DNA from: Flavobacteriaceae bacterium ASP10-09a | Lineage (GTDB): Bacteria; Bacteroidota; Bacteroidia; Flavobacteriales; Flavobacteriaceae | DNA length: 32,731 nucleotides | Assembly (NCBI GenBank): GCA_000981625.1 | Contig: LAQA01000046.1 | Coordinates: 356-33,086, forward strand | Direction: 5' to 3' | Part shown: piece after piece, positions 22,650-32,731 of the stretch | Layout: the number at the start of each line of letters is the position of its first letter | Numbering within the stretch: the first letter of the stretch is position 1 | Made by a program: the position numbers and the translations under genes | The notes under the pieces: generated by a model | Databases searched by the model: none | What the model was told of the DNA's origin: nothing | The model's input: the letters and a program-made list of their open reading frames with translations, nothing else

Positions 22650-24197
22650 ATGAGCAATATACAGATTTTATGGGTTGATGATGAAATTGAATTATTAAAA
22701 CCTCACATTCTTTTTTTAGAGCGTAAAAATTATAAAGTAACCAAATGTACAAATGGAGCTGACGCAATTGATTTGGTAGACCAAGAAAATTTTGATATTG
22801 TCTTTTTAGATGAAAACATGCCTGGCTTATCAGGTCTAGATACACTTGCACAAATTAAACAAAAACAGACAAATTTACCTGTTGTAATGATTACCAAAAG
22901 TGAAGAAGAATATATTATGGACGAAGCAATTGGTTCTAAAATTGCCGATTATTTAATTAAACCGGTAAATCCTAGTCAGATTTTATTGAGCATAAAGAAA
23001 AATTTAGACCATTCACGTTTAATTTCTGAAAAAACTACTTCTAGCTATCAACAAGAATTCAGAAAAATTTCTATGGATTTATCAATGGTAAACAGTTATG
23101 AAGAATGGATTGAACTCTACAAAAAATTGGTTCATTGGGAATTAGAACTAGAAAATATTAGCGATTCTGGAATGTTAGGTATTCTAGAAAGTCAGAAACA
23201 AGAAGCTAATAATCAGTTTTTTAAATTCATAAAGAAAAATTATGAAGATTTTTTAACCTCTCATGATAAACCTACTTTTTCTCATACTTTGTTTAAAGAT
23301 TATGTAGTTCCTGAATTAAGTAAAGAGCAAGGTGTTTTATGGATAGTGATTGATAATTTAAGATATGATCAATACAGAACCTTAGAACCTTTAATCAATA
23401 ATTATTACAAGAAAGAGCAAGAATACTCGTACTTTTCTATTTTACCAACAGCGACTCAATATGCTAGAAATGCAATTTTCTCAGGATTAATGCCGTCAGA
23501 AATGGAAAAACGTCATCCAAATTTCTGGAAAAACGATACAGATGAAGGTGGAATGAATTTATTTGAAAATGATTTTTTAACGGCTCAAATTAAAAGGTTG
23601 AATTTAGATATTAAACATGAATATTATAAAATAACAAACCTAAAAAGTGGAAAAGAATTAGCGGATAATTTTAACGGAACAAAACAAAACGACTTAACGG
23701 CAGTTGTATATAACTTTGTCGATATGCTATCTCACTCTAAAACAGAAATGGAAGTTATTAAAGAATTAGCTGGAGACGATAAAGCCTATAGAAGCCTTAC
23801 TCTAAGTTGGTTTAAGAATTCACCTTTGTTTGAAATTATACAGAAAGCGCAACATTTAGGTCAAAAATTAATAATTACCACAGATCACGGAACTATTAAT
23901 TGCAAAAACCCCACAAAAGTGATTGGCGATAAAAATATCAGTTCTAATTTACGCTACAAAACAGGAAGAAGTTTAACCTATGAAGAGAAAGATGTGTATG
24001 CAGTTAGAAATCCAAAAGATATATTTTTACCAACAATAGCGATGAATAGCCCATTCATTTTCGCAAAAGAAGACCTCTTTTTCGCATATCCAAATAACTT
24101 TAATCATTTTGTTAAATATTTTAAAAACACGTATCAACATGGAGGTGTTTCTTTGGAAGAAGTAATTATTCCTTGTGCCGTATATAGTCCTAAGTAA
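22650..24197 (+). CDS. porX: PorX-type response regulator with PglZ/alkaline-phosphatase-like domain (T9SS regulation)
   Basis: Receiver domain (ILWVDDEIELLKPH, DIVFLDENMPGLSG) fused to LWIVIDNLRYDQYR and IITTDHGT. Confidence 0.93.
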   Translation: MSNIQILWVDDEIELLKPHILFLERKNYKVTKCTNGADAIDLVDQENFDIVFLDENMPGLSGLDTLAQIKQKQTNLPVVMITKSEEEYIMDEAIGSKIADYLIKPVNPSQILLSIKKNLDHSRLISEKTTSSYQQEFRKISMDLSMVNSYEEWIELYKKLVHWELELENISDSGMLGILESQKQEANNQFFKFIKKNYEDFLTSHDKPTFSHTLFKDYVVPELSKEQGVLWIVIDNLRYDQYRTLEPLINNYYKKEQEYSYFSILPTATQYARNAIFSGLMPSEMEKRHPNFWKNDTDEGGMNLFENDFLTAQIKRLNLDIKHEYYKITNLKSGKELADNFNGTKQNDLTAVVYNFVDMLSHSKTEMEVIKELAGDDKAYRSLTLSWFKNSPLFEIIQKAQHLGQKLIITTDHGTINCKNPTKVIGDKNISSNLRYKTGRSLTYEEKDVYAVRNPKDIFLPTIAMNSPFIFAKEDLFFAYPNNFNHFVKYFKNTYQHGGVSLEEVIIPCAVYSPK

Positions 24198-28535: not shown

Positions 28536-28814
28536 TTATACTGCTTCAACCTCATACATATCATCGTATATTTCTTTGCATCCATATCCTATAATAAAAA
28601 CTTCTTTACTTTTTTCAGCCCCCTCTTTAACGACTTCTTTAAGCGCTTTAAGTCCCATCCTATCTATTTGTTTTATTGCATCAATATTTAAAACTATTTT
28701 TTTCTTTTTACCAAGTTTCTTTTTAAAATACGCTGAAAACAGATTTACTGTTGATTTAGTAATTCTTCCTTTTATAAGATAAACACTTTTCTTTTTTGAG
28801 ATTTTTAGTGACAT
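28536..28814 (-). CDS. STAS-domain protein (anti-sigma-factor-antagonist-like)
   Basis: 92 aa; VYLIKGRITKSTVNLFSAYFKKKL…KIVLNIDAIKQIDRMGLKALKEVVKEG is STAS-like. Confidence 0.75.
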   Translation of the reverse strand: MSLKISKKKSVYLIKGRITKSTVNLFSAYFKKKLGKKKKIVLNIDAIKQIDRMGLKALKEVVKEGAEKSKEVFIIGYGCKEIYDDMYEVEAV

Positions 28815-29171: not shown

Positions 29172-29876
29172 TCAAAGTAAATCTAATCGTTTCATCAACT
29201 CGGCTCTCTTAGATCGACTTATAGGAACTACATCTTTTTTTATTAAGACACTGTTGTCTTCTATATCTATAATCTTCTTAACATTTATGATGTAAGAACG
29301 ATGAACTTTTAAGAATAAAAGATCAGGTAATTTCTCCTCAATCTTTTTTAATGTAGAATGGACGACATAATTCTTGTCTTCTGTTTTAATGTTGATATAG
29401 TCTCCTTTTGCTTCAATTAAATAAATACTGGTCAAATCTATTTTTATCAACCTTCTATCTATATTAACATAGAAATCATTTTTAATCTCTGGTTCCTCAT
29501 CTTTATTTAACTGACTCTGCACAAGTAATTCCCTTTCCACTTTTTTAATTGCCTTTTTAAATCTTTTTAATTCTATTGGTTTTAAAAGATAGTCTACAAT
29601 AAAATCATATTCAAAAGCTTCTATTGCAAATTTTGGGTCTGAAGTGGTGAAAATTATTTTAGGAGGGTTTTTTAGCGTTTTTATAAAATCTAATCCGCTA
29701 AAATTTGGCATATGAATATCTAAAAAAATAAGGTCGACTTTATTAATATCCAAGTATTTAATAGCTTGAATAGCACCCGAAAATTCTTTAAGAAGATTTA
29801 ATGATTTTATTTGATCGCAAAGAGTTTTTATAATAACTCTTGCCATCTTTTCATCATCTATAACTATACAATCCAT
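29172..29876 (-). CDS. LytTR-family response regulator
   Basis: Receiver (CIVIDDE, LIFLDIHMPNFSGLDF, IIFTTSDPKFAIEAFEYDFIVDYLLKP) and LytTR domain (YINIKTEDKNYVVHSTLKKIEEKLP…FLKVHRSYIINVKKI). Confidence 0.95.
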   Translation of the reverse strand: MDCIVIDDEKMARVIIKTLCDQIKSLNLLKEFSGAIQAIKYLDINKVDLIFLDIHMPNFSGLDFIKTLKNPPKIIFTTSDPKFAIEAFEYDFIVDYLLKPIELKRFKKAIKKVERELLVQSQLNKDEEPEIKNDFYVNIDRRLIKIDLTSIYLIEAKGDYINIKTEDKNYVVHSTLKKIEEKLPDLLFLKVHRSYIINVKKIIDIEDNSVLIKKDVVPISRSKRAELMKRLDLL

Positions 29877-29880
29877 GTGT

Positions 29881-30204
29881 CTAAATAGTTTTCAAATATT
29901 CAGAAATAGCCGTTAGAATTTTATCAAAATCTTGATGTTCTTTTAAATTTAATTGATGTTCTCGAAGACTATGTTCAAACTCATTAGCTTTATTATAACT
30001 TTTTACTAGTCCTAAAATACTAAATTTATGCTTAATTCTATGAACATTGCTTTCAATTTTTTTAAAATCTTTAAGTTCCAAACTAATATAATAGTCTTTT
30101 ATTTCGTCAGGAAACTCTGTCTTTATTACATCTATTAAGGTTTTCTTAATAGATTCGTCTCCTCTAGCAAGTTGTTCTATATAATCTAAATTTGGTTGTT
30201 CCAT
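29881..30204 (-). CDS. Stand-alone Hpt (histidine phosphotransfer) protein
   Basis: 107 aa helical protein with VHRIKHKFSILGL, the Hpt phospho-His motif. Confidence 0.87.
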   Translation of the reverse strand: MEQPNLDYIEQLARGDESIKKTLIDVIKTEFPDEIKDYYISLELKDFKKIESNVHRIKHKFSILGLVKSYNKANEFEHSLREHQLNLKEHQDFDKILTAISEYLKTI

Positions 30205-30206
30205 GC

Positions 30207-31253
30207 TTATTTTTTAATTTTAAAATAAAATGTAGTTTCTATATTTGGAATAGATTTTAACCAAATTTCACCATCGTAAGTTTCTATAATTTTTTTTACA
30301 ATTGATAAACCTATACCTGTAGACTTGTAATCATTTTCTAGTTTTTGAAATGCAATAAATATTTTATCAAAATATTTTTCTTCTATTCCTTTTCCATTAT
30401 CTTTTATAGAAAATTGCCAATATTTATTTTTATCAGAACAATTAATCTCTACTAAACCCTCTTTTTCTTTATCATTAAACTTAATAGCATTGTATATAAG
30501 GTGATGAAATAATAACTCTAACCTATGGTGATCACCTTTTATAATAGGGAGTTTTCTAGGCATTGAGATTCTAACGTCTTTAGGATTCTCGAAAGTTAAT
30601 ATAAGGTCCTCTATTAAAACATTTAAATTTACTTCATAAAGTTCTTTTTTTGCTTTTCCTATTGTCGAATATTCTAAAATTCCAAGAATTAATGTATCCA
30701 TTTTTTCAACATTCTCTCTAATTAGGCCTACAACCTCTCTTCCTCCTTCTCCTAAAACCTCAGAATAATCTTCTCTTATCCAGTTAGTGAGGGCGTCTAT
30801 ACTCTGTAAAGGCGACTTTAAATCGTGAGAAATCATGTGTGCATAGTCATTTAGCTCTTGATTTTGTCGCTCTAAATTTGATACAAGTTTATCTTTCTGT
30901 TTGTTTATTTCTAATATTTCTTTTGTTTGAATATCTATAAAATCAACTAATTTTAAAGAATCTTCACTCTCTATTTGATCATCAACTTTTAAGTCATAAA
31001 ACTTTAACGTGTCAATAACATTATTAAGTTTCGTTATAATTTCTTTTTGAGATTCTGATTCTTCTCTTAATTGTTTATTTGAATTAAAAAGCTCTTCAGA
31101 ACTAATAGATGCTGCTCTTTCAAGCATTGCAAACTGATCTTCTGAAGTTGTATAAGATCGATTTACTGCATCTATAAAAGCTTCCAAATCTTTATTAGAT
31201 TGAAAGTCTTTGGGTAAATATTTTCTTAATTGTCTTATTAAAAGTAAGTTCAT
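30207..31253 (-). CDS. Soluble sensor histidine kinase without a receiver domain
   Basis: HisKA YAHMISHDLKSPLQSI; HATPase N box LIYNAIKFND, G1 IKDNGKGI, G2 STGIGLSIVKKI; no TM segment; long N-terminal coiled coil. Confidence 0.94.
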   Translation of the reverse strand: MNLLLIRQLRKYLPKDFQSNKDLEAFIDAVNRSYTTSEDQFAMLERAASISSEELFNSNKQLREESESQKEIITKLNNVIDTLKFYDLKVDDQIESEDSLKLVDFIDIQTKEILEINKQKDKLVSNLERQNQELNDYAHMISHDLKSPLQSIDALTNWIREDYSEVLGEGGREVVGLIRENVEKMDTLILGILEYSTIGKAKKELYEVNLNVLIEDLILTFENPKDVRISMPRKLPIIKGDHHRLELLFHHLIYNAIKFNDKEKEGLVEINCSDKNKYWQFSIKDNGKGIEEKYFDKIFIAFQKLENDYKSTGIGLSIVKKIIETYDGEIWLKSIPNIETTFYFKIKK

Positions 31254-32392
31254 TATTCACTTATTAGTGTAATCACAATTGTTTGGTTATGTAATTGACT
31301 ATTTTTTTCTCCATTAAAAGGGGCTATTTCTCCATAAGAATAGAAACCACAAATTGTTGTTTCTTTACCTACCACTTGAATTACCTCTTCTACTTCTTCT
31401 TCTACCCTTTGGTCTAAAACTAATTTTCTACCAATACAACTTACTAAAATTGCAAGCTCCGGTTTATTTTTTCTTGATTTTAAAGCATTTACAGCACAAG
31501 TATCAGCTGCATTTACAATATTATCCACATTTGTCATCATTAACTGAACTTTAGATCCTTCAATTATATCACCAGCTAATATCATTGAATTATTTTCTTC
31601 ATTAATGTTTAAAATAGTTCTTACAATTGATCTTTTTTCATCAGTAGATTTTACTTTTAATGGATATAATAATGCAGCACCGGGTAATTCTTTAGATTTC
31701 TCACCTAGATATGTTTTGTATAAATCTAATGCTGGTTTACCATCTAATTTAAATAAAATATTATCTTTTGATTCCGTAACTACTCTTTCTGGGCCGAAAG
31801 GTGTCCAACCACCATTAGAAGAAAAAGAAACTTCTAATGTGTCTCCATAAAAACCAATCGCAACTACTTTTCCTTCTTTTGGATTTTCATTATAGGATGA
31901 TAACGTAGTCTCAAACCTTGCTGCATCTCCACATAAGGCTCCTGTTATTAAAAGGTCGTCTTTCGTTACAGAATTCATACCTTTAGTAAGCTGACTTCCG
32001 TTTGTAAAACTTCCATCAGCAACAATAAAAGCATATTTTAAATTCTCTTTTGGTAATTGTTTTATTAATTCATTACCTGTTTTAAAACTATCTATCTGAA
32101 CATTAGAATTTAAGACATTCGCTGTTTTAATTAAAAAACTACTCTTTTCAAATTCTATTGCTGTAATTATTATGCTATCATCACTAACAGATTCTGAAGT
32201 TATATCTCCAGAAGTTGAACCAAAAACAATATGACCGTCTTTAAAGATCTCTCTAACTTCATCAAAAATATTTTTTTCCTGCAACATATATCTGTTTCCA
32301 AAGACTAAAACTAGAGGTTCTTTTAAAATAAGCACTTCAGTTAAATATTCGAATTTTTTATCCTCAGTTTTCTTTAGTTGTACCGTTTTCAT
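31253..32392 (-). CDS. FIST domain protein (FIST_N + FIST_C; NosP-like candidate NO sensor)
   Basis: VFGSTSGDITSES, GALCGDAARFETT, VVAIGFYGDTLEVSFSSNGGW and C-terminal CGFYSYGEIAPF; stop/start overlap TAATG with the kinase. Confidence 0.88.
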   Translation of the reverse strand: MKTVQLKKTEDKKFEYLTEVLILKEPLVLVFGNRYMLQEKNIFDEVREIFKDGHIVFGSTSGDITSESVSDDSIIITAIEFEKSSFLIKTANVLNSNVQIDSFKTGNELIKQLPKENLKYAFIVADGSFTNGSQLTKGMNSVTKDDLLITGALCGDAARFETTLSSYNENPKEGKVVAIGFYGDTLEVSFSSNGGWTPFGPERVVTESKDNILFKLDGKPALDLYKTYLGEKSKELPGAALLYPLKVKSTDEKRSIVRTILNINEENNSMILAGDIIEGSKVQLMMTNVDNIVNAADTCAVNALKSRKNKPELAILVSCIGRKLVLDQRVEEEVEEVIQVVGKETTICGFYSYGEIAPFNGEKNSQLHNQTIVITLISE

Positions 32393-32414
32393 TTTTTTTT
32401 TTTAGTGGGGGGGG
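32392..32414. repeat. Adjacent homopolymer tracts T12 (32392-32403) and G8 (32407-32414); A12 and C8 on the coding strand
   Basis: Read directly: attttttttttttagtggggggggaaaag, at the FIST translation start. Confidence 0.95.
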
Positions 32415-32444
32415 AAAAGAAATTCAGCAGATTTGTTAAGTCTT

Positions 32445-32488
32445 AAAAAGTATGATTATTTTTAAATATTAATAAGCCTATACTTTTT
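32445..32488 (-). other. Inverted repeat between the H-NOX stop and the FIST gene (possible weak terminator/attenuator)
   Basis: AAAAAGTAT (32445-32453) and ATACTTTTT (32480-32488), 26-nt loop. Confidence 0.35.
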
Positions 32489-32731
32489 ATTTATTTTTTT
32501 TGATGATAAACTTTACTTCTGTACCATCTTCTTTTATTTTCTCTATTTCTATTGTGGCTGTTGTATTAAAATACTCAAAAGTTTTATTCATTAAACCTAA
32601 TCCAAAATGATGCATTGCTCTACTAGACTTATATATCATTACTAAATAGTCATCTCTTTTTTCTAATACTATAAAAAGAGGTACTTCTGAATCAGGATAA
32701 ATTTTTTTTACTTCTAAATGAATATGACTTT
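32487..32731 (-). CDS. Heme NO/O2-binding (H-NOX) domain protein, C-terminal fragment truncated by the window edge
   Basis: Translated by hand: SHIHLEVKKIYPDSEVPLFIVLEKRDDYLVMIYKSSRAMHHFGLGLMNKTFEYFNTTATIEIEKIKEDGTEVKFIIKKNK*. YKSSR matches the H-NOX heme-contact YxSxR motif, and the GL(M/I)xxxxxxF context fits the family. Confidence 0.87.
   Translation of the reverse strand, partial: SHIHLEVKKIYPDSEVPLFIVLEKRDDYLVMIYKSSRAMHHFGLGLMNKTFEYFNTTATIEIEKIKEDGTEVKFIIKKNK

Follow-up and report, generated by a model that had tools for sequence, protein, structure and literature searches.

Does one soluble histidine kinase receive the signals of two unrelated gas sensors? This question is raised by a gene cluster on the minus strand of a 32,731-nt stretch of DNA (the window; contig LAQA01000046.1, positions 356 to 33,086) from Flavobacteriaceae bacterium ASP10-09a. 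There, the end of an H-NOX gene is followed by genes for a FIST-domain protein, a histidine kinase (HK2), a phosphotransfer protein (Hpt), and a response regulator with a LytTR DNA-binding domain. Most studies of H-NOX and NosP-type sensors concern Proteobacteria, in which these proteins signal through cyclic di-GMP (c-di-GMP) or quorum-sensing relays. An earlier note on the window proposed that both sensors feed the one kinase. Comparison with related genomes points to another arrangement: Flavobacteriaceae probably have a gas-sensing phosphorelay with two branches, in which each sensor has a kinase of its own, and the cluster would be its Polaribacter version. The window genome (G000) is a draft of 2.37 Mb (75.5% complete, 4.95% contamination). 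The nearest named relatives of its FIST protein (78% identity) are from Polaribacter, and by sequence the genome very probably belongs to that genus.

All five genes that the note had described in tight succession were recovered by domain matches at or near the positions it gave, using Pfam and operon profile models built from 65 operons. The H-NOX gene is represented by its last 80 codons (32487–32731). This fragment matched HNOB (PF07700) with 48.3 bits (cut-off 25.5; profile positions 101–162) and the operon hidden Markov model (HMM) with 124 bits, which bears out the H-NOX C-terminus claimed in the note. The codon of the proximal heme-ligand His, the second His of SHIHLEV, lies within the assembled part (32718–32720), in a column that is invariant in 85 of 85 H-NOX sequences, and the YxSxR motif is present as YKSSR. 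The FIST protein (31253–32392; 379 aa) matched FIST with 142.7 bits and FIST_C with 121.2 bits. HK2 (30207–31253), with the H-box HMISHDLKSPL, matched HisKA (33 bits), HATPase_c (74 bits), and the HK2 HMM (480 bits); its maximum hydropathy is 0.82 and it has no membrane-like segment. The Hpt gene product (29881–30204; motif HRIKH) scored 23.8 bits against the Pfam Hpt profile (cut-off 24.6) and 122 bits against the operon Hpt HMM, while the response regulator (29172–29876) matched Response_reg with 61.2 bits and LytTR with 72.7 bits. The spacings listed in the note were exact: FIST and HK2 overlap by 1 nt, and the gaps between HK2 and Hpt and between Hpt and LytTR measure 2 nt and 4 nt, respectively. 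It had left unmentioned that H-NOX and FIST, unlike the rest of the cluster, are separated by 94 bp (32393–32486).

The gene order is conserved in relatives, where it forms a larger unit than in the window. Seven genes in the fixed order CheY, H-NOX, HK1, FIST, HK2, Hpt, and LytTR were found in 119 distinct loci, nearly all from Flavobacteriaceae; these loci were picked by H-NOX/FIST linkage or by FIST similarity, and 119 is therefore a count and not a frequency. Linkage was assessed in a family sample of 400 genomes, with H-NOX in 149 and FIST in 118. A FIST gene lay on the same strand within 8 kb in 76 of 148 genomes with H-NOX (fewer than one expected), and a chance cluster was rejected because the linkage is far beyond expectation. 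Among 118 congeneric genomes, 71 contained H-NOX, 55 FIST, and 50 both, and the two were linked in 32. Outside the family, a class-level survey of 20 FIST loci yielded one full operon (L241), on a contig labelled Portibacter lacus (G833:C32), perhaps owing to transfer or mislabelling.

Canonical operons have 1.3–2.5 kb at the place of the 94-bp spacer. The distance between H-NOX and FIST shows steps near 1350, 1730, 2100, and 2500 bp, because a kinase of varying length, HK1, intervenes. HK1 is of the PAS/GAF type (several PAS matches in one relative, PAS and GAF in another), and HK2 lacks this N-terminal region. Neighbourhoods are strongly ordered. The gene directly after H-NOX is HK1 in 155 of 164 distinct cases (FIST in 4), and the gene directly after FIST is HK2 in 155 of 162. 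Hpt follows HK2 in 147 of 160 cases and HK1 in 17 of 163, and is itself followed by LytTR in 155 of 167. Variant operons consist of CheY, H-NOX, HK1, Hpt, and LytTR without FIST, the FIST-HK2 pair being located elsewhere or absent, so that the two modules are separable as a two-pair model predicts. Given the adjacency within each pair and this separation, one Hpt and one LytTR regulator seem to be shared by two sensor-kinase pairs, rather than one kinase by two sensors. The kinase-Hpt-LytTR phosphorelay composition proposed in the note thus held up, with conserved gene order, but its suggestion of two sensors on one soluble kinase fails as a general rule, since HK1 directly follows H-NOX in the 119 operons.

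The window locus itself lacks HK1 and so departs from the seven-gene order. It is otherwise complete: beyond the window end and a scaffold gap of 325 N, the same strand carries a gene for a CheY-like receiver. The rest of the H-NOX gene could not be recovered from the window genome, as the 325 N lie directly beyond the window end. No remnant of HK1 was seen by eye in the sequence of the 94-bp spacer, whose hairpin is ordinary (z = −0.67). Immediately ahead of the FIST start, the spacer contains a run of eight G (32407–32414; read as C on the coding strand) and a long stretch of A. These homopolymer runs, which could be slippage-prone, are absent from the corresponding spacer in the related genomes G415, G449, and G462.

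Where did the kinase go? The best HK1 match in the window genome is located on contig C41; it runs to the contig end, is preceded by a CheY-like gene, and has no H-NOX beside it. Many Polaribacter carry a second module of the form CheY, H-NOX, HK1, (Hpt), and LytTR. In the HK1 tree the kinases of this second module form a clade with 100/100 support, and the C41 kinase falls inside it as sister to the G415 kinase (99/93). This placement bears on the trivial explanation that HK1 is missing through an assembly or binning error and that the true operon is an ordinary seven-gene one. Such an error might be expected of a draft of this completeness and contamination, in which the H-NOX gene abuts a scaffold gap and the HK1 relative extends exactly to the end of its contig. 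Yet the C41 kinase does not group with the in-operon HK1 proteins, and the single-contig genomes G415 and G462 are laid out like the window, with H-NOX directly before FIST and an HK1 without H-NOX hundreds of kilobases away. We therefore regard an artefact as very improbable.

The layouts can be read as a duplication of the module followed by reciprocal loss, although the H-NOX tree is too poorly resolved for proof: its support is too weak to place the window H-NOX as operon type or second-module type. If this is what happened, the window lineage may have uncoupled H-NOX from its kinase and attached it to HK2 instead, which would rewire two unrelated gas sensors onto one kinase, as the note had supposed. 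In favour of such rewiring, H-NOX lies directly upstream of FIST and HK2 without HK1 in the window genome, G415, G449, and G462, and G449 keeps its FIST-linked H-NOX despite a second H-NOX-HK1 module. However, HK1 relatives persist in all four genomes, HK2 lacks the PAS/GAF region of HK1, and HK1 is the usual neighbour of H-NOX. We consider rewiring unlikely and favour two separate sensor-kinase pairs also in the window lineage. As a separate observation, the second module in G415 and G462 (L276, L277) is preceded by genes that look by eye like cbb3-oxidase accessory genes and by one of FixG type (FixG_C match in Pfam, checked in L276).

What would the relay control? LytTR regulators bind direct-repeat operators about two helical turns apart, with 21-bp spacing. 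A probable operator of this kind, a direct repeat of ATTCGTC with a 21-bp period, was found upstream of the operon in relatives. A qualifying repeat pair was present in 91 of 175 regions upstream of CheY, and the period was exactly 21 bp in 90 of the 91. When a matrix was used to scan 1.27 Mb of non-training loci, 89 sites scored above 22 bits, the best score in reversed sequence being 15.6; training and scan loci share some species, and the two sets are thus not fully independent. Among the sites above 24 bits, 40 lay in intergenic DNA ahead of CheY, and another 22 preceded the gene of a large protein. A gene for a protein of more than 600 aa comes first on the same strand downstream of LytTR in 49 operons. 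Four of these large proteins were examined, and all are type-IX-secreted surface proteins with DUF4114 or DUF6923, one of them also with an ice-binding-like domain. The gap between LytTR and the large protein often measures 108–111 bp; it contains a conserved CCATTCGTCTACACTT element and a TAnnTTTG-like box, which we take to be a flavobacterial promoter box. Genome searches gave 1 to 5 sites per genome in 8 of 11 genomes and none with a control pattern. Many of these sites adjoin the operon, and some are next to genes for glycosyltransferases and polysaccharide export. Beside operator-carrying polysaccharide genes of one genome (G268, L297), a STAS-like protein was noted by eye; the fragment has no Pfam match.

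As to what the two branches sense, the H-NOX side is the clearer. The solved structures nearest to these H-NOX proteins are PDB 6bdd/6bde, and 6BDD is the H-NOX of Kordia algicida (PMC7356049). By eye, 6bde matches the H-NOX of a canonical operon (L110) except for one Gly/Ala difference, so H-NOX proteins of this operon type have an established H-NOX structure. There are good grounds to regard the window H-NOX as an ortholog of the crystallised protein. The Kordia algicida H-NOX was studied as an isolated domain, whereas the gene of its counterpart belongs to a canonical operon; no paper on its operon context or signalling was found in the open-licence literature.

The FIST protein is presumably a heme or nitric oxide (NO) sensor, by analogy with a FIST protein that acts on an adjacent soluble kinase with NO (PMC12570481). 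The note had called it NosP-like. The layout agrees, as FIST and FIST_C domains are encoded beside a soluble kinase without a sensor domain; the score does not, as the protein reached 61.9 bits against the NosP model (NF041558), far below the cut-off of 450. Possibly the FIST branch responds to something other than NO (heme itself, or a small metabolite), in which case the relay would combine NO with a second kind of signal. We give this alternative appreciable weight, although less than an even chance. In addition to the low score, FIST proteins beside kinases are widespread in Bacteroidia, where 19 of 20 loci at class level had no H-NOX, and His368 of FIST_C, invariant in homologs, is a heme ligand only hypothetically. 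Against it, where FIST proteins encoded beside soluble kinases that lack a sensor domain have been characterised, they are heme/NO sensors (PMC12570481), and FIST-HK2 has this layout. The systems described there, NosP/NosK/NosR, resemble the present one in that a FIST gene adjoins a soluble kinase without a recognised sensor domain; they differ in that the FIST protein here scores under the NosP cut-off, the output is Hpt-LytTR, and an H-NOX branch is joined. A sequence search returned no solved FIST structure. Residue 365 of the window FIST is Ser, in a position occupied by Cys in 152 of 154 FIST homologs.

Taken together, the phosphorelay that we favour would work as follows. H-NOX would bind NO through its heme and tune its own PAS/GAF kinase, HK1, and FIST would tune its own soluble kinase, HK2, in response to heme or NO. 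Both kinases would pass phosphate through one Hpt protein to one LytTR regulator, and the CheY-like protein might serve as an extra receiver or phosphate sink. The regulator would act at ATTCGTC direct repeats 21 bp apart, upstream of its own operon and of the type-IX-secreted surface protein, and polysaccharide genes would be further targets in some genomes. The operon of the window genome has lost HK1, and H-NOX would most likely act in trans on the second-module HK1 relative. The genes and their order, their conservation, the candidate operator in relatives, and the relocation of HK1 are seen in the sequences themselves; we infer the FIST ligand, the flow of phosphate, the role of the CheY-like protein, the direction of regulation, and the pairing in trans.

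Several observations weigh against this model: (i) in G449, a second H-NOX lies next to FIST without HK1 while another H-NOX-HK1 pair is kept; (ii) the genome G408 keeps an HK1 relative with no H-NOX found, which implies that HK1 does not need H-NOX; (iii) with the patterns used, no operator was found in the window genome, G415, or G449, and in the window it is not visible because the operon start is not assembled; (iv) the FIST protein falls far short of the NosP cut-off, and its AlphaFold model, with a mean predicted local distance difference test (pLDDT) value of 61, is too poor for inspection of a heme pocket; and (v) the flow of phosphate from HK1 and HK2 through Hpt to LytTR is predicted from gene order. 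With these points taken into account, we still consider the two-branch phosphorelay the probable reading of the locus.

Some neighbouring genes deserve mention. A STAS-domain gene (28536–28814, minus strand; STAS 32.3 bits) lies 357 bp downstream of the LytTR gene in the window. STAS homologs follow LytTR in five other loci (L262, L273, L176, L180, L267), and several Polaribacter share the position; whether the gene belongs to the system is uncertain. In one locus (L077), another Hpt-like gene (108 aa) lies two positions beyond LytTR and may be an additional component of the relay. Eight distinct operons, judged by gene sizes (e.g. L189:747-5704), directly follow genes for a molybdopterin oxidoreductase (1173 aa, nitrate-reductase-like) and a nitrite/sulfite-reductase-like protein, domains that were checked in L189; these neighbours may link the system to nitrogen oxides. 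Elsewhere in the window (22650–24197), a gene resembles by eye, from its translation, that of the type-IX secretion regulator PorX (receiver and alkaline-phosphatase-like region).

How far is this system new? The note knew of no described system with this composition. Indeed, open-licence papers yielded nothing on the seven-gene operon, on its operator, or on its targets, which is weak evidence of absence; the proximity of FIST and H-NOX genes, however, was already noted in a review with a network of genome neighbourhoods (PMC8738867; group 1 in Fig. 6). The same review depicts the H-NOX and NosP pathways as joining in one Vibrio cholerae network; its section on the neighbourhoods gives no operon order and mentions no second kinase, Hpt, LytTR, operator, or targets. 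A similar meeting in Shewanella oneidensis is indicated by the title of a reference cited in PMC12570481. The HnoK/HqsK-type pathways of Shewanella and Vibrio likewise have a stand-alone H-NOX beside a kinase and signal by phosphotransfer, but here both sensors and both kinases are encoded in one operon. Their outputs are c-di-GMP enzymes or a quorum-sensing relay, whereas the present relay would end in a LytTR transcription factor that has a predicted operator of its own.

A common marine family thus appears to join both sensor types, both kinases, a shared Hpt protein, and a regulator in one operon, so that the way in which a cell combines two NO or heme sensors becomes testable in a single locus. 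A readable candidate operator and a short list of targets, the secreted surface protein and polysaccharide genes, come with it, and the crystallised Kordia algicida H-NOX can now be studied within a candidate signalling pathway. With their reshuffled gene order, the Polaribacter versions could serve as natural test cases for the question of which kinase is controlled by which sensor. Should rewiring prove true after all, they would constitute a natural experiment in which the ancestral two-kinase form is preserved in relatives.

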